A stretch of 64,000 bases of DNA from assembly GCA_020073445.1 (NCBI GenBank), contig JAIQFE010000002.1, forward strand, positions 124,001 through 188,000. Reading direction: 5' to 3'. Shown here piece by piece: positions 26,139 through 32,148 of the stretch (positions are counted from its first letter, which is position 1; every line of letters starts with the position of its first letter). This DNA comes from Terriglobia bacterium. GTDB lineage: Bacteria; Acidobacteriota; Terriglobia; Bryobacterales; Bryobacteraceae. The notes under the pieces were generated by a model, which was not told where the DNA came from, did no database searches, and saw only the letters and a program-made list of their open reading frames with translations. The translations under genes and the position numbers were made by a program.

Positions 26139-28585
26139 CGGCCCCCTCCCGTCACCTGGAACGCCGCCCAGTAGGAGGGCGCGGCCTGCCAGATTCCCGA
26201 ATGGATTGCCTCCACCTGACTGTGGCGCAAGGCTTCTGCCGCGTGGTCGGTGCGCAGATGTTGGTAGAACGCCGGCATTAGATCGCCGTCCGCATCCGGC
26301 ACCGGCCAATTCGTCGCGACTATGACTCGTGCACCGGCCATCATCCATGCCCGAGTAAGTCCGAGCAATCCAGCGCCCACGCGAGCGTCGCCGGTTCCAG
26401 TGGCGCACCCCGTCATCACAATTAACGAGCCGGGGACGTGCAGCATACCGATTTCGGCCGTCGACAGCAGACCTGGACTGGCGTTTTGGTCCAGCGAAAA
26501 GGCCAGGAATGCCTGCTCCGGGTGCGTCGCCGAAGTCAGAACATGCGTCGCTAAATGGATCGTTGAGGGTGCCGCATTGAGCGCGTCGAGAAAAGCGCCG
26601 CGCCGCGCCGCCGTTCCTTCCAGGATTTGTAGTGGCGGGGCCATACCGGTGGCCGTCCGCCAGCTGGCGGAGCTGCGCTGCACTTCGCGGCTGCTGCTCA
26701 CCAGCCGGTTCAGTTGACCACGGCCTTCCCGTCGATCCTTCCAGAGGTTCCAACTCGCCGTTCTTCTTGGATCAGCCGAGTTGTATACCGGATCTGCTAC
26801 GCCCAGGTATCCACCCAGGGCGGCGGTTTGCCGGTTCAAGAACAACGCCCCCGGAATCTCTTGCGTGGAATGGCGTTCCGCGGCATAGACCGGCTGGCCG
26901 TCCTTGTAGCCGCTCACCAGGGCGGCAAATGGCAGTTCGAACAGCGCCCCATCCAATGACACCAGCCAGGACGTCTTGGCCGCGTCCGCCGGATCGAGTG
27001 AACCGAACAGTCGTTTATAAAGATCGACGCCCAATTTGTCTCCCGCCGGTTGGTTCTCGAGAATCGCTTCCCGAAAACGCCTTACATCCTCGCGAATCTC
27101 AGACTCCGCCGGCAGTCTGTGTAGCTTTATGCTCCTTTGGGTAACGGCCCAAAGGTATGATTCCTGCCTGCCTAGGTAAAAACTTAGTAACACGTCACGT
27201 TCACTTAGGCCCTGTTGAATATCAATAAGTGAACTCCGAGTGCGAAAATTCTCGCTTAACGTCACCGCAACTCCAATCCCGGCGCTTGATTCCATTTCGG
27301 TAAGTTCCAAATGGAGACGTTCTGACTCAGGACTTCTCGTTCGGTTGGCATTTAAATCATGCGCTTCCTGCTGGTTCAACCGCCCCAAGGTTTCCCAGTA
27401 GGCTACAGGTAGTCTCGTTTTCCATACGGGTGCCAGCTCCCGGCTCTCCCGCAAGCTGGCCGCGCGATTGGCCTCCAATGCCATAAACGCATCTCCCGCC
27501 CAAGTCCGATCGCCTGTCCGCAGCGCCTGACGCGCGGCAGTTTCCACGAAGGACTCGAAAATCTCGTGCTGCAGGGCAGTGTTAGCGCCCGCTACCAGGG
27601 AAATCGCCGCTGGCACCCTTCCGTTCAGTTGACTCACCTGTTCCATGGCGGTACGAAAGTCCCCAAGTGCCAATTCGGGCTGGCCCAGAGCGTCGCGGAT
27701 CTTAGCCCGCTGATGGAAAAGCATGTAGATGGCCGGACCGGGAGGGCCGAGTTGGATCGCGCGCTCTGTGAGGGCCAGCGCCTCTTTGGCTCGCTGATGG
27801 CGCTCTTCCCCCCGAGCGCGCTCGGACTGCGCCAGCCGCAACGCGCCTAAGGCTGCGTAGGAAAGTCCCAGGCTCTTGGGCGAATATGAGATTCGCAGGC
27901 GGAGCGCCCGGCCGAGCGAGGTTTCGGCCCCTTCCAGATCCTCCGCTGCAGTCTCTTCCGCGCCCAGCAAATCCCATGCGGCGGCCTCCGCGTCTGTATC
28001 TCCAGTCTCGCTGGCCGCCTCGATCGCCTCCTGGTAGCGCGGCTCAGTCGGGGTTTGATGCAGGGCGGCGCGGACGCTACGGAGACTCATCAGCAGCTGC
28101 GCCTTATAAAACGGCGGAGTTTGCAGGCGATCCAGGGCCGTCTTCCCGCGCTCCAGTGCGCTAAGAGCGCTGTTCGGATCACCCAACCACTGGTAGAGCA
28201 GCGCGAGGTTGGCCGCGATGCCTCCCGTCGCGGACCAATCTCCTGTACGCTCTGCGAGAGCGCTCGCTTCCAGATAGGCTTTGAGCGCCGGAGCGTAGTG
28301 CAGGAGGAGCATCCGCGTGGTTCCCAGGTTACTCAGGTAGCTAATTTGCGCTGAAACATTCCCTCGTTCCTTGGCTCGTTCGTAGCCCTGCGCATACACG
28401 GATTCCAGGCCCGCGAAATCCCCTACGGCGCGACCAGCACGCGCAGTACGGGTGAATTCTGCGAAATCTTTGGTCTCCCACCACCGGCTGGAGTCGGGCG
28501 ACCCAGCCCGTATGGCCGACGACGGACGCGTGGCAGCCATACATACGGTGAGGACAAGGCCTAGGCAAAATCGGTGATTATGCAC
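26135..28585 (-). CDS. Secreted TPR-CHAT domain protein (caspase-like peptidase), 5' end rebuilt by transposon
   Basis: An 816-residue protein. It has a signal peptide (h-region FCLGLVLTVCMAA), TPR-like helices at about 60-330 (for example YAPALKAYLEASALAERTGDW in outline), and a C-terminal CHAT domain (about 500-810). The likely catalytic pair is H681 in HLATH and C727 in MTGCATG, both intact. CHAT proteins are caspase/separase-like proteases. The current start is a GTG (28583-28585) inside the left terminal repeat of the transposon. The original first codons remain on the far side of the element at 32149-32185. The next gene, a sigma factor, overlaps by four bases. Confidence 0.9.
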   Translation of the reverse strand: MHNHRFCLGLVLTVCMAATRPSSAIRAGSPDSSRWWETKDFAEFTRTARAGRAVGDFAGLESVYAQGYERAKERGNVSAQISYLSNLGTTRMLLLHYAPALKAYLEASALAERTGDWSATGGIAANLALLYQWLGDPNSALSALERGKTALDRLQTPPFYKAQLLMSLRSVRAALHQTPTEPRYQEAIEAASETGDTDAEAAAWDLLGAEETAAEDLEGAETSLGRALRLRISYSPKSLGLSYAALGALRLAQSERARGEERHQRAKEALALTERAIQLGPPGPAIYMLFHQRAKIRDALGQPELALGDFRTAMEQVSQLNGRVPAAISLVAGANTALQHEIFESFVETAARQALRTGDRTWAGDAFMALEANRAASLRESRELAPVWKTRLPVAYWETLGRLNQQEAHDLNANRTRSPESERLHLELTEMESSAGIGVAVTLSENFRTRSSLIDIQQGLSERDVLLSFYLGRQESYLWAVTQRSIKLHRLPAESEIREDVRRFREAILENQPAGDKLGVDLYKRLFGSLDPADAAKTSWLVSLDGALFELPFAALVSGYKDGQPVYAAERHSTQEIPGALFLNRQTAALGGYLGVADPVYNSADPRRTASWNLWKDRREGRGQLNRLVSSSREVQRSSASWRTATGMAPPLQILEGTAARRGAFLDALNAAPSTIHLATHVLTSATHPEQAFLAFSLDQNASPGLLSTAEIGMLHVPGSLIVMTGCATGTGDARVGAGLLGLTRAWMMAGARVIVATNWPVPDADGDLMPAFYQHLRTDHAAEALRHSQVEAIHSGIWQAAPSYWAAFQVTGGGR

Positions 28586-28594
28586 TTGACAAAG
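28573..28594 (+). repeat. Left terminal inverted repeat of the transposon
   Basis: Twenty-two bases identical, in inverted orientation, to 32119-32140. On the minus strand this repeat contains the GTG now used as start of the CHAT gene. Confidence 0.93.
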
Positions 28595-28653
28595 TAGGCC
28601 ACCCGCGCAACGATAAAGCGTGACAGGTCGGCAATTCTGCGCTACCCTTCCGC

Positions 28654-28980
28654 ATGGGCTTTGCGGGTTTCACTGGCCGTGAACTGGATGTGCTCGCGCT
28701 ACTCGTGAACGGCGTGCCCCGGCCAGAGATCGGCAAGCGCCTAGGCTTCTCCCGCTGGCGAACCTACGAACTCCTGAGGGTGATCTATTCCAAGACGGGA
28801 TTTGATGACGTTGCCATGCTCACCGCGTGGGCAAAGGCGAACGGGCTGGATGAGACGCTACCAGCGGAGACTAGCGAGACGCGGGCCTATCCTGGGACAC
28901 CAAAGCCACGGCAGAAGCGGATCAAGCTGGGCAGGATGCGGGGAACGGAGACTCCAAGGCGGGAGACGCGGATGTCGTAA
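28654..28980 (+). CDS. LuxR/GerE-type helix-turn-helix protein
   Basis: A 108-residue protein. Residues 5-65 match the LuxR DNA-binding domain pattern: FTGRELDVLALLVNGVPRPEIGKRL, then the recognition-helix region and IYSKTGF. A basic tail follows (PRQKRIKLGRMRG). There is no receiver or sensor domain. It is a passenger of the transposon, reading opposite to the other passengers. It may regulate the element or neighbouring host genes, but this is a guess. Confidence 0.75.
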   Translation: MGFAGFTGRELDVLALLVNGVPRPEIGKRLGFSRWRTYELLRVIYSKTGFDDVAMLTAWAKANGLDETLPAETSETRAYPGTPKPRQKRIKLGRMRGTETPRRETRMS

Positions 28981-29148
28981 GGTGGCTGTTACTTCAATAA
29001 CTTAGGGTAAGCTGGTTATTCTACCACGAAAAGTATTGATCTCATAACCAACACTACGGTATCCTAGGCATGTAGGATTCGTGGGAACAACTCGAGGTCG
29101 CCCTTATGGGTGGCAGCCAAAGATTTGGTGGGATCCTGGAGCCCGGGC

Positions 29149-29940
29149 CTACATCGGATAGTGCAAATTCGCCCAAGCGGACAATGTCCCTTGGGCGATT
29201 TGTTTTTCTGCCGCAGGTGGAAAGATTTTTAGGCCGTATCCACGGTGCCTGGACTTATAACTATATAGCATTGGCTTCCACATCTCGCACCATCGCGGGC
29301 TTCGCTTATGTTCTTTTGGGTGATCTCCGCAATAGAATCCGCTCGCAACCGAATCGACGATTTGCAGCCCTGCATGCTCACTCGGTTTTCTTGTAATGAA
29401 AAGATCCGGCTTAATAATGCCCCATTCAATGGTGGTAGGTTCTGCCCGTAGTTCCGAAAAGTATTGCCTGAGCCGGTCATGAGAAATTTCGTCCATCGAA
29501 GAAAATACGACCCTGGCACTTCCATCGCCGTGTTCCTTGATACGTCGCTCGCGGCTATCTCTACACAGCCAAGAAGCTCGCTCCAGAAGATACTTCGTAA
29601 AGTAGAAGTAGAGCCTGTTACGCTCGTTAAAGATCTCTGGGTCCTCTAAGGACGGCTTGTGAACCATGATGACGATGGCGCGAAACAGCGATGGATCTTT
29701 CGTGAAACATTCAACAACGGGTTCTCTGTGTTCGGATAAAACATCCTTGAAATGCAGAGCCTTCTTCATCACCCATCCGGCTTGAACCTTCGCTCGTTGA
29801 ACGGCCACCGTCATTTCAGGAGTCCGACTAGCTAACCCGACAACACCGGCAACAACGAACCAGTGCGAGGATTGGTTGTCCCCAAATGAAAACCCCTGAT
29901 CTCCTGATTCATCAATGCAAATATCAAAGCTGTGAGCCAT
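29149..29940 (-). CDS. DUF3800 family protein, putative RNase H-like nuclease
   Basis: A 263-residue protein starting MAHSFDICIDESGDQGFSFG. The IDESGD motif and the later conserved acidic and aromatic positions (VVFSSMDEISHD, GLQIVDSVASGFYC) mark DUF3800, found widely in phages, mobile elements and defence islands and thought to have an RNase H-like fold. The start at 29940 is chosen because the conserved motif begins there; an upstream in-frame ATG (29988) lies inside the tRNA. It begins 17 bases after the tRNA 3' end and is probably on the same transcript as the tRNA and the gene at 30043. All 14 isoleucine codons I read are ATT or ATC. Confidence 0.85.
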   Translation of the reverse strand: MAHSFDICIDESGDQGFSFGDNQSSHWFVVAGVVGLASRTPEMTVAVQRAKVQAGWVMKKALHFKDVLSEHREPVVECFTKDPSLFRAIVIMVHKPSLEDPEIFNERNRLYFYFTKYLLERASWLCRDSRERRIKEHGDGSARVVFSSMDEISHDRLRQYFSELRAEPTTIEWGIIKPDLFITRKPSEHAGLQIVDSVASGFYCGDHPKEHKRSPRWCEMWKPMLYSYKSRHRGYGLKIFPPAAEKQIAQGTLSAWANLHYPM

Positions 29941-29957
29941 TTCGATTGAGTAACCGG

Positions 29958-30041
29958 CGGAGGATGGCAGAGTCGAACTGCGATCCAAAATAGATCAGCC
30001 GATCATAAATCGGCCCATAGCTAACCGGCTACTCATCCTCC
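29958..30041 (-). tRNA. Serine-type 8/4 allo-tRNA with anticodon UAU
   Basis: An 84-nt cloverleaf with every base placed: acceptor GGAGGATG/CATCCTCC (8 bp), A9, D arm GTAGC-CGGTTA-GCTAT, one G, anticodon stem GGCCGA/TCGGCT with 7-base loop TTTATGA (U33, anticodon UAU), variable arm GATC-TATTTTG-GATC, T arm GCAG-TTCGACT-CTGC (4 bp), then G73. The 8-bp acceptor plus 4-bp T stem is the 8/4 form known as allo-tRNA, described from bacteria including Acidobacteria; normal tRNAs are 7/5. The long variable arm and G73 are serine identity features. CCA is not encoded (CCG follows G73). The first base is two bases after the stop of the upstream gene. Confidence 0.85.
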
Positions 30042-30042
30042 C

Positions 30043-30480
30043 TTAAGCCACGCTGCGCTGGCTCTCTTGGTGCTCCCACTCGCCTAGGCCCCAACCATTG
30101 GGCATCCTGACGACGCGGCCAACCTCTTTTGAGTGACGGCTCAATACTGATCCGATAGTCGTTGTGAGATTTGCAGATCTAGACTGAAATCCACCTTTGA
30201 CCAAGCGATCGCATAATTCCCTTGTGCTCAATTGACGACCGGCTTCTCGAATAGCTGTTTCTGCTGCGGTCGGAATGCTCATATTCGTAAACGGGGCCAA
30301 GAACTGCTGCGAGAGTACACTTGGAGTCACCATGGTGATCTCGTTTGAATTATTGTCGAGCAAAATGCGCGCTCCGTCCAGAGCGGCGTCAATAGCAGCA
30401 ATCTTCGATTGAAATTCAGATTGCAGCGCGGCACGCTTTGCCGTGAGATCCGCAATGAACTGATGGTAGTCGTTTGCCAT
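30043..30480 (-). CDS. Helix-turn-helix (HARE-HTH-like) protein with N-terminal coiled coil
   Basis: A 145-residue protein. Residues about 8-40 look like a coiled coil (DLTAKRAALQSEFQSKIAAIDA in outline). Residues about 68-135 resemble a winged-helix HARE-HTH-type domain: TAAETAIREAGRQLSTREL, CDRLVKGGFQS, then VLSRHSKEVGRVVRMPNGWGL. A strong GGAAGGAAGGA ribosome site precedes the ATG. The tRNA begins right after its TAA stop, so one transcript probably carries this gene, the tRNA and the DUF3800 gene. None of its eight isoleucine codons is ATA. The domain assignment is by pattern only. Confidence 0.75.
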   Translation of the reverse strand: MANDYHQFIADLTAKRAALQSEFQSKIAAIDAALDGARILLDNNSNEITMVTPSVLSQQFLAPFTNMSIPTAAETAIREAGRQLSTRELCDRLVKGGFQSRSANLTTTIGSVLSRHSKEVGRVVRMPNGWGLGEWEHQESQRSVA

Positions 30481-30867
30481 AGCGATTTTATCCTTCCTTC
30501 CTTGGGTTGACTATGATATAAAAACAAATAGGGCTGGTGACGTTTTGAGGGCGGATTTCTCCGCCCCCGCCATTACTGGCGTGGTCAACTTATCATTTCA
30601 CTTGCCCTCTGGAGGAATGAGCTTAGGTCTCCGGCCCGCAAAGCAGAAGCGTCCTAGCTCATTCCTCTACCTTCGTTTTCAAGCATACGCCTAGAACATT
30701 TCTCTGGTCAAGCGTTTTATGCGTCGGCTTAAAGACACACTATGTGCCTTTTCCACATTGCCATTTTATTTCTGTGGAAAACGTGATGTTAAAATCAGCG
30801 TCGGTAATCTGACTCTGTGTTCGATGCCGGTTTCGCCATGTATGTGGATCGCGTAGACTGAATCCAG
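30481..30867. other. Internal transposon spacer with promoter region and two hairpins
   Basis: About 390 bases without a recognisable gene. It should contain the promoter for the minus-strand passenger operon (TATCAT-like box near 30510) and possibly for the small plus-strand ORF. A GGGCGGA-TTTC-TCCGCCC hairpin lies near 30550-30570, and a much longer palindrome is listed separately at 30612-30667. The region is AT-rich towards 30780. Confidence 0.5.
30612..30667. repeat. Long palindrome inside the transposon
   Basis: GAGGAATGAGCT (30612-30623) pairs perfectly with AGCTCATTCCTC (30656-30667). Allowing one bulged T, AGG/CCT extends the stem to 15 bp. The loop of about 25 bases is GC-rich. Possible roles are a terminator-like structure, a protein site or a small RNA. 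Confidence 0.7.
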
Positions 30868-31020
30868 ATGCCCAAGCGCAGCGCACCCGCACTAAAGAAC
30901 GTCACTGTGGACAAGTCCGCATTCGACGCGCTGCTTGGCGTTCTGATCGCATCGCCACCGATACGCAAGGACGATCTGAAGCCTAAGCGGAAATCGAAGC
31001 GGGCCAAGAAGGCAGTCTGA
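30868..31020 (+). CDS. Small basic transposon protein (50 residues)
   Basis: MPKRSAPALKNVTVDKSAFD followed by ALLGVLIASPPIRKDDL and a lysine/arginine-rich end (KPKRKSKRAKKAV). Short ORFs of this kind (a D-x-x-L-x-x-L-I-x-S-P-P-x-x-K pattern) are often found beside IS1595-type transposases; the role is unknown. It contains one ATA isoleucine codon (PPIR). Confidence 0.5.
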   Translation: MPKRSAPALKNVTVDKSAFDALLGVLIASPPIRKDDLKPKRKSKRAKKAV

Positions 31021-31022
31021 AC

Positions 31023-31121
31023 ATGCCCAAGAGGTTGCCGGAATGGTTATTGTGGATCACCATTCTCTTGATCGCGTTCGGCATCGTAACGTTCCTTGGC
31101 CTCCACTACAAGCTGTTCTGA
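31023..31121 (+). CDS. Tiny single-TM protein (32 residues)
   Basis: MPKRLPEWLLWITILLIAFG followed by IVTFLGLHYKLF: a short positively charged start and one hydrophobic helix. It begins two bases after the 50-residue ORF, which supports translation. Its 3' part overlaps the end of the transposase gene on the other strand by 75 bases, so it could be fortuitous. Confidence 0.4.
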   Translation: MPKRLPEWLLWITILLIAFGIVTFLGLHYKLF

Positions 31122-32093
31122 GGAAGTCTTGGCGATCAGCGCCTTGTAGCGTAGCGCGTTCCCTATCGCCAGATTCATGATGATGAGCGCGAATAGGTCT
31201 TCACACTCGCGCTGATTAAAGCGGAACGAGAACTCGTTCAGGTAGCGGTGGAGATGCTTCACGCTCACGCTGTGGAAGGAACCTATCAGGCCACGCTTGA
31301 AAAGACTCCAGAACGATTCGATGCCTTGGGTGTGGACCTGCCCGCGCACCCATTCTTCTTTCGAGTGCGAGACTATTTGGTGCTTCCAGCCTGACTTGCC
31401 GAGCGATATGTACGCCTTGTGATCGTCGGTCATGATGTCAGTCCCCGGAGCGATGTGATCCTGAACAATGCCCGTCATGACTTGCTTTATCTCACGCTCT
31501 ACGGGAAACGCCTTGACCTTGGAAGGACCATCTTCCGTGCCGCGCTGCATGACGCCAGCCACGGCTTGCTTGTCGTAGGCAGCGCGTTTCCGGCGGGGGT
31601 CGAAGCGTCCTCCGACGAATGTGGCGTCCACTTCGACAGTCCCACCGAAGAGCCCAAGTGTACCATCCTGCATCGCCTCACGGATGCGATGGTCAAGGAA
31701 CCACGCCGTGCGGTAGTTAACGCCCAGATCCCGCTGCATCTGCTTTGCGGAAACGCTTTTCTTGGCGTTTGCGATTAGCGCCACGGCCATGAACCACTTG
31801 GCTAGGGGTAGGTGGCTCTTGTCGAATATCGTGCCTGTGGTGGCGCTGTATTGGTAGCGGCAGCCATCGTTATTACACTGGTAGAGACGGCGGGCAGGAA
31901 CGCGAACCTCTTTGATCTCGCCCTTGCGGTTGGTTCGCTCCCGCGTGGTTTCGTTGGTGATGATCTTGGCAACCTTGTCAGACCCGCACTTGAGGCAGCG
32001 AATGCCATCCGGCCAGCGCATGGCTTCGAGATAGGCCAAACACTGCTCTTCAGTCCCGAAGTTCTTGGCGGTCTGTATCAGGCTTTGTGCCAT
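31047..32093 (-). CDS. IS1595-family (ISXO2-like) transposase
   Basis: A 348-residue transposase. The N-terminal zinc-ribbon reads RCLKCGSDKV...YQCNNDGCRYQYS (about 34-84). The DDE-type catalytic core includes VEVDATFVGG (first Asp), IMTDDHKAY (second Asp) and, where DDE enzymes have Glu, the GIESFWSLFKRGL segment typical of the ISXO2 group. It appears intact and full length. Of its 20 isoleucines, 7 use ATA (for example codon 6), a striking excess beside the passenger genes and the GC-rich host genes. Confidence 0.96.
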   Translation of the reverse strand: MAQSLIQTAKNFGTEEQCLAYLEAMRWPDGIRCLKCGSDKVAKIITNETTRERTNRKGEIKEVRVPARRLYQCNNDGCRYQYSATTGTIFDKSHLPLAKWFMAVALIANAKKSVSAKQMQRDLGVNYRTAWFLDHRIREAMQDGTLGLFGGTVEVDATFVGGRFDPRRKRAAYDKQAVAGVMQRGTEDGPSKVKAFPVEREIKQVMTGIVQDHIAPGTDIMTDDHKAYISLGKSGWKHQIVSHSKEEWVRGQVHTQGIESFWSLFKRGLIGSFHSVSVKHLHRYLNEFSFRFNQRECEDLFALIIMNLAIGNALRYKALIAKTSSEQLVVEAKERYDAERDQENGDPQ

Positions 32094-32118
32094 GACTAAG
32101 CATAGCTAAACCCTTATG

Positions 32119-32140
32119 CTTTGTCAAGTGCATAATCACC
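32119..32140 (-). repeat. Right terminal inverted repeat of the transposon
   Basis: Inverted copy of 28573-28594, identical over 22 bases. The following bases 32141-32148 (GCAAAATC) are the second copy of the target duplication. Confidence 0.93.
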
Positions 32141-32148
32141 GCAAAATC

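Follow-up and report, generated by a model that had tools for sequence, protein, structure and literature searches.

Phages with suppressor tRNAs recode a stop codon in their own genes, and passenger genes are known in transposons of the IS1595 family. The tRNA locus described here bears likeness to both, as well as to the 8/4 allo-tRNAs (Mukai et al. 2017, via the review PMC7609411), which have an 8/4 branch, a long variable arm and serine identity elements, and are found in Acidobacteria. According to those parts of the review that were accessible, (i) UAU is among the predominant anticodons of the 8/4 allo-tRNAs, (ii) an allo-tRNA(UAU) pseudogene of Edaphobacter C40 overlaps a transposon-related ORF, (iii) UAU allo-tRNAs are not usable for translation in E. 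coli, which counts against recoding, and (iv) toxin-antitoxin systems or transposable elements are put forward as a hypothesis. A literature search retrieved no link of a UAU tRNA to AUA codons of a transposase or to IS1595, with the reservation that Mukai et al. (2017) may hold more. Thus, the tRNA is of a known kind, while its coupling to the transposase is new as far as searched.

The window analyzed, i.e., the whole stretch of 64,000 nucleotides from a Terriglobia bacterium, harbours a complete IS1595-family transposon (28573-32140) with identical 22-bp end repeats and an 8-bp target duplication. It comprises the following features:

28565..28572, no strand: left copy of the target-site duplication GCAAAATC, identical to 32141-32148
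28573..28594, plus strand: left terminal inverted repeat (TIR) GGTGATTATGCACTTGACAAAG, exact inverted repeat of 32119-32140
28654..28980, plus strand: cargo ORF of 108 aa with a weak LuxR-type HTH (PF00196, E 0.012, below the curated cut-off)
29070..29159, plus strand: DUF3800-VII RNA (RF02967, 67.5 bits, gathering score 36.2), convergent to the DUF3800 gene
29149..29940, minus strand: DUF3800 protein of 263 aa (PF12686, E 1.2e-9), ATG at 29940
29958..30041, minus strand: 84-nt class II 8/4 tRNA with anticodon UAU and G73 (ARAGORN, fold, covariation)
30005..30007, minus strand: anticodon TAT, read directly
30043..30480, minus strand: HARE-HTH-like cargo protein of 145 aa (PF05066, 25.7 bits, just under the cut-off of 25.9)
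31047..32093, minus strand: IS1595-family transposase of 348 codons (PF12762, E 5e-36; PF12760, E 6e-12), seven of them ATA by codon count
31260..31262, minus strand: transposase codon 278, conserved site 2, GTG (Val) in the window gene
31284..31286, minus strand: transposase codon 270, ATA, conserved site 1 (KRGL-ATA-GSFH)
32119..32140, minus strand: right terminal inverted repeat
32141..32148, no strand: right copy of the target-site duplication GCAAAATC

The criteria of the IS1595 family are met by a DDE transposase with Zn ribbon (PF12762, PF12760), TIRs and the 8-bp target duplication, and the TIR consensus GATTATNCACTTGACACA is common to the window element and related elements. An earlier note, based on the bare sequence, had placed the tRNA gene inside a complete mobile element and between two protein genes. 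Both statements hold: GGTGATTATGCACTTGACAAAG is found at both ends with GCAAAATC repeated outside, and the tRNA begins 1 nt past the stop of the HARE-HTH-like gene, with the ATG of the DUF3800 gene following 17 nt further on. With its transposase, TIRs, target duplication and cargo, the element resembles IS1595-family transposons with passenger genes, but differs from these in that the cargo tRNA is coupled to codons of the transposase (see below). The likeness to suppressor-tRNA phages is that a mobile element alters the reading of a codon in its genes with a tRNA that it brings along. The codon concerned is a stop codon of phage genes there; here it would be a sense codon, with the clearest case in a single transposase gene, and a host reader for AUA is present. 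The UAU allo-tRNAs share the 8/4 branch, the long variable arm, the serine identity elements and the occurrence in Acidobacteria, and one known case overlaps a transposon-related ORF. However, the accessible text of PMC7609411 describes them without a partner gene, AUA codons of a transposase or TIR-bounded elements.

The DUF3800 gene and the DUF3800-VII RNA (29070-29940) look like a two-part module of their own. In all 18 scanned relatives (of 80), as well as in L006 and L007, the RNA was found on the opposite strand, by the 3' end of the DUF3800 gene; in L003, it is located 5' of that gene instead. The tRNA occurs together with this module in the window and in L143. Membership of the tRNA in the module was considered and rejected, since neither a UAU tRNA called by ARAGORN nor a strong match to the tRNA covariance model exists in any of the 80 DUF3800 relatives; the model's three matches among them sit on tRNAs called Phe, Ser and Met by ARAGORN.

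ARAGORN predicts a single tRNA in the window (29956-30041, anticodon tat). By eye, the acceptor stem has 8 bp (GGAGGATG/CATCCTCC), the D stem 4 bp, the anticodon stem 5 bp (GCCGA/TCGGC, loop TTTATGA) and the T stem 4 bp (GCAG/CTGC, loop TTCGACT); a variable arm is present and the discriminator is G73. None of 200 shuffled sequences was equally stable (minimum free energy of the tRNA -38.2 kcal/mol, z -4.24). CCA is not encoded, CCG coming after G73. The earlier note's 84-nt gene at these coordinates, on the minus strand, is therefore real by ARAGORN call and fold, and the 8/4 cloverleaf, long variable arm, TTCGACT loop, G73 and UAU anticodon claimed there could be retraced by eye. The generic tRNA model RF00005, which lists 46 tRNAs for the genome, misses this gene. 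The tRNA-Sec model (RF01852) yields 29.8 bits, below its cut-off of 47; seven of 20 related loci, by comparison, pass the Rfam cut-off. The likeness to tRNA-Sec lies in the 8/4-like branch; the window copy differs in its score, its UAU anticodon and its short D arm. The form of an ordinary tRNA-Ile(UAU), i.e., canonical 7/5 and class I, is not met by this class II 8/4 tRNA. The bases at positions 37 and 8, on which the earlier note is silent, are G and A, respectively; A37 is the usual base in tRNAs for ANN codons.

The 5' half of the acceptor stem contains GGAGG, which resembles a Shine-Dalgarno sequence, and the DUF3800 ORF has a TTG-started frame beginning within the tRNA. A function of the anticodon loop as -10 promoter element, or of an antisense promoter behind the tRNA, was dismissed, as no consistent -35 was seen by eye.

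A BLASTN search of 396 genomes with the tRNA retrieved only the tRNA itself and one short match, so that a covariance model was needed. Scanning viral contigs with a single protein yielded no hit. The first model, built from the window sequence alone, identified relatives in other genomes of the phylum. Across four sequences, changes on both sides were observed in 17 of 25 pairs, with 98 % of cells paired; none of 500 shuffles scored as high. The alignment had been fitted to the structure, which biases the value in favour of the structure. With the fold covarying, the earlier note's prediction of a covarying 8/4 fold is met, and its test for refutation (homologues lacking compensatory changes) was passed. 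On this sequence evidence, the window tRNA is a genuine 8/4 tRNA that has been maintained by selection.

Both serine identity features that can be read from the sequence, G73 and a long variable arm, are present, and the closest tRNAs of the own genome by simple alignment score are Ser tRNAs. The type of the tRNA thus points to Ser, while charging by SerRS and insertion of Ser are inferred. The own genome contains one match to the tRNA covariance model and one to the surrounding 1.6-kb region. Among its 46 tRNAs are three with CAU and none with UAU. TilS, the enzyme through which a CAU tRNA becomes able to decode AUA as Ile, was detected with 171 bits. Since TilS is present, AUA has a host reader, although it remains undetermined which of the three CAU tRNAs is tRNA-Ile2.

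A second covariance model was run on 200 genomes of one related family and matched in 143; many of the matches listed (~36-44 bits, 87 nt) are taken to be ordinary tRNA-Ser and were not checked individually. Among 33 aligned model matches, 23 have anticodon UAU, 21 of these with G73, and several relatives show odd anticodon loops by eye. Nine of the ten matches with other anticodons share a GCCAGTGGGTACTGG-like D arm, the tenth being degenerate. L137, L154, L155, L158-L161, L163 and L165 represent such a separate 8/4 tRNA group, with a D arm of this kind and anticodons other than UAU; within the flanks of about 1.5 kb examined, this group has no IS1595 transposase nearby.

In wider context, 11 of 25 UAU loci lie between two properly oriented IS1595 TIRs, five have one TIR and nine have none; the background amounts to six such motifs in 80 other loci (661,454 bases). 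Repeats of 8 bp outside the TIRs are also present in elements L175 and L178, and three of the nine TIR-less loci (L168, L170 and L179) are near IS1-type transposases. The cargo varies and includes XRE-ImmA/IrrE, DUF5343 (above the cut-off in L186, below it in L180 and L183), Abi_2, Beta_protein, Gp49-like with HTH, and DUF3800. It was set aside as partner of the tRNA because it is too varied between elements.

Since the transposases of these elements contain unusual numbers of ATA codons, related IS1595 transposases were searched in 26 genomes. This yielded 102 matches; 101 gene hits of at least 200 residues in the stretches examined were reduced to 86 genes by removal of 15 duplicates, around which UAU tRNAs were sought with the covariance model and ARAGORN. 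For 13 genes, the stretch examined also contains a UAU tRNA; two TIRs enclose 12 of these, and L177 has a single TIR. Another 70 were counted as tRNA-less, and three near or cut by contig ends (L281, L282 and L265) were excluded from these counts; L281 and L282 were treated as tRNA-carrying in the tree and are included in the list of site codons and in all scorings of AUA meaning. Fourteen of the 70 tRNA-less genes were first viewed with about 1.5 kb of context, of which five were later widened and nine remain narrow, and for five of the 70 less than 1 kb downstream was contained in the locus used. L190, with a UAU tRNA at 4 kb from an IS1595 transposase that has no ATA, and without TIR, was counted as tRNA-less.

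The tRNA-carrying genes contain two to seven ATA codons (mean 4.2) vs zero to three (mean 0.7) in the tRNA-less genes (p 2.5e-9), and ATA accounts for 55 of 262 vs 50 of 997 Ile codons (p 5e-14). ATA is the only codon strongly raised in tRNA-carrying genes, ATT is lowered (p 3e-9), and GC3 is equal (0.66 vs 0.65). Two sites are conserved in the transposase, KRGx-ATA-G(S/T/N)(F/Y)Hxx followed by S-ATA-KHL, located 11 and 19 residues past the Glu of HTNTVES, which is presumably the third catalytic residue. ATA occupies site 1 in 10 and site 2 in 10 of the 13 tRNA-carrying genes, with at least one site in all 13, while it is found at neither site in any of the 70 tRNA-less genes. Including L281 and L282, ATA is present in 12 of 15 at either site, the remaining codons being GTG, GTG and AAT at site 1 and GTG, GTA and GGC at site 2. 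ATC or ATT was observed at neither site in the 13 tRNA-carrying genes or in these 15. Ile is not encoded at site 2 by any of the 70 tRNA-less genes, which come from the same genomes, and the TIR-bounded stretches of the three tRNA-less relatives that are nearest contain no UAU tRNA. A further genome locus, L289, combines a UAU tRNA with ATA at site 1.

A nucleotide-level motif at both sites was set aside, as the wobble bases of the surrounding codons vary; L192 and L178 have ATC just before site 1. An ATA at about codon 4 was not used as evidence, since it also occurs in the tRNA-less L216 and L201. The three cargo genes of the window contain no ATA codon. In cargo genes as a whole, ATA is fairly frequent as well, making up 43 of 291 Ile codons. 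In a tree of 38 transposase genes (including the cut L281 and L282), the tRNA label requires five changes, at least four of them by well-supported branches; with a shuffled mean of 13, the tRNA-carrying transposases do cluster. As judged from these genes, the UAU tRNA and the conserved AUA codons of the transposase strictly co-occur. The earlier note had suggested a function of the tRNA for the element; this is supported and can be sharpened. The apparent partner is not the flanking cargo but the transposase gene, in which AUA codons go along with the presence of the tRNA.

The co-occurrence was also observed in an independent collection, IMG/VR. There, ATA at both sites was found on five contigs and ATC or ATT at both sites on none. 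With a motif allowing any codon, 102 IMG/VR stretches matched, 80 of which were examined together with L299 from an earlier scan (81 loci). Seven of the 81 have ATA at site 2, and six of these seven carry a UAU tRNA in the same locus (p 2e-8 vs the other 74), detected by ARAGORN and the model in L295, L297, L298, L312 and L360 and by the model only in L299; the seventh, L296, ends just behind the transposase, its downstream side missing. The other 74 loci examined contain no UAU tRNA, three weak model matches among them having other anticodons, and none of them encodes Ile at site 2; Ser at this site does occur in the tRNA-less L340. L328 and L329 have ATA at site 1 only and no UAU tRNA. The tRNAs of L295, L299 and L360 lie between TIRs. 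In L295 and L312, the tRNA is a class II body of 7/5 form that has G73, an encoded CCA and the anticodon UAU, and its nearest own-genome tRNAs are Ser tRNAs. If Ser at AUA were not what matters, the same anticodon on different Ser-type bodies in the same kind of element would be difficult to account for. Together with G73, the long variable arm and the nearest own-genome tRNAs of the window copy, these two bodies above all lend support to the serine type proposed in the earlier note.

Which amino acid AUA stands for was approached by profile scoring. In a leave-one-out profile (without L265), 59 of 60 codons recover their standard meaning and only ATA fails: every amino acid scores below zero, Val being least bad and Ile (-38.6) about equal to Ser (-38.8). 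With the profile of tRNA-less genes (scored with L265), the 69 ATA codons yield -36.7 for Ile and -15.9 for Ser, with Arg, Gln and Lys above zero, while 240 ATC/ATT codons yield +216 for Ile. This profile alone names no amino acid, the bootstrap winners being Lys, Val and Thr. When 22 genes (including L281, L282 and L296) were scored, the 42 codons in 25 sporadic ATA columns fitted best to Ser (+0.9), followed by Lys, Arg and Thr, with Ile at -34.8; counting each of these columns once places Lys and Arg first and Ser third. Summed over all ATA codons of the 22 genes, Val is best and Ile (-35.6) ranks above Ser (-63.4), an effect of the Val that is frequent among near relatives at the two main sites. 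Ser scored above Ile in 64 % of bootstraps with the tRNA-less profile, 93 % with leave-one-out, 95 % with the 22 genes and all columns, and 99 % with the sporadic columns. ATA codon 89 of the window transposase falls in a column that is Ile in relatives. By these scorings and the codons found at the two sites, AUA in the transposase differs in use from its synonyms AUC and AUU and does not behave as plain Ile; Ser is plausible, though not singled out, the sequence alone not naming the residue.

We consider it likely that the element-owned serine-type UAU tRNA makes AUA a private codon of the element's own transposase; AUA would be read as non-Ile, most likely Ser, by the transposon's own tRNA. 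SerRS would charge this tRNA with Ser, which would be put at the AUA codons of the transposase in competition with the host's AUA reader. Since Ile is absent at site 2 in 144 tRNA-less transposases (70 and 74), the Ile form probably functions poorly, and the Ser form is inferred to be active, from which it would follow that active transposase depends on the element's own tRNA. A wider formulation is favoured only slightly: that a family of IS1595 transposons has a private code in which AUA means Ser in the transposase via the carried Ser-type UAU tRNA, and that lineages recruited different Ser tRNA bodies (8/4, 7/5). As the transposase would be misread, and probably inactive, under the host meaning AUA = Ile, the tRNA would act as a built-in key that ties transposition to an intact element. 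Points against recoding are G37, the odd loops in relatives, the 9 of 25 UAU loci without TIR, the ATA use in cargo, and L190; neither expression nor charging nor protein data stand behind it, and Ser is not singled out.

Recoding would not be required if the tRNA were charged with Ile and merely supplied the decoding of rare AUA in the transposase, as a control of supply or tempo. The anticodon bases A35 and U36 are IleRS determinants, and where tRNA-carrying genes lack ATA at the two sites, Val is most frequent, which would speak for this reading as well. This explanation is nevertheless rated improbable in view of the lack of ATC/ATT at either site in the 13 tRNA-carrying genes, the lack of Ile at site 2 in tRNA-less genes (0 of 70, and 0 of 74 in IMG/VR), the poor fit of Ile at the sporadic ATA columns, and the G73, long variable arm and tRNA-Ser-like bodies in L295 and L312. 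With serine charging retained, the tRNA may alternatively act as a missense brake, i.e., the Ile form of the transposase would be active and Ser insertion would spoil it, so that transposition falls as copy number rises. The position of both sites shortly behind the Glu taken as catalytic, as well as TilS providing a host reader of AUA, are compatible with such a brake. We give it little credence, since relatives do without an active Ile form (site 2 is Ile in 0 of 144 tRNA-less genes) and Ser does occur at site 2 (L340).

A role outside translation, as tRNA-like RNA partner of toxin-antitoxin-like cargo or of the DUF3800 module, might be inferred from the frequent position of the UAU tRNA 3' of ImmA/IrrE-XRE, DUF5343, HARE-HTH or Abi genes, and the irregular loops and the failure of UAU allo-tRNAs in E. 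coli (PMC7609411, as far as its text was available) would fit as well. However, UAU and the AUA codons of the transposase remain constant while the cargo changes between elements, UAU also occurs on 7/5 tRNA-Ser-like bodies in the same kind of element, and no UAU tRNA or strong model match accompanies the 80 DUF3800 relatives, rendering such a role very unlikely. Chance or shared ancestry, i.e., a transposase clade that happens to use ATA and to carry a tRNA, would be in line with the clustering on the tree, but can practically be dismissed given at least four gains or losses, varying wobble bases around the sites, and a rule that held at six of six testable loci of the independent IMG/VR collection.

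Allo-tRNAs with odd anticodons had no known job; the coupling of AUA and transposase to the element-owned UAU tRNA offers a concrete and testable one. If AUA is indeed read privately, two meanings of a sense codon coexist, the original one in the host and another within a single mobile gene. Sense-codon reassignment would then be confined to a mobile element, and UAU allo-tRNAs would have a function. Code changes could then start locally and be spread by transposons, and a new form of self-control of element movement is suggested.

Several further observations concern the relatives of the tRNA. At 2100-2191 of L280, an IS1595 transposase with six ATA codons is followed by a UAU tRNA whose D arm differs and whose CCA is encoded, both lying between perfect TIRs. 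In L136, L138, L140, L141, L169, L192 and L134, UAU tRNAs are located behind XRE-ImmA/IrrE genes or near Gp49/HTH pairs, and a small conserved convergent gene (MxRKxxDLKALRxMIGEAHDILRT) is next in L138, L140 and L141. A second conserved RNA is present about 30-130 nt upstream of the tRNA in L145, L146, L148, L149, L150, L152, L153 and L157; by eye, it comprises TTCACCRTGGARTTGGGCGAYAACACRAAGGCCC, a hairpin, RGCCRTGGTGAG and a T-rich end, and is possibly pseudoknotted. Rfam yielded no match to this upstream RNA at E 0.01 or better. In a genome of the same genus as the window (L135, 1464-1542), an 8/4 tRNA that is degenerate and has a long anticodon loop is located upstream of a gene that, by eye, looks like release factor 2.
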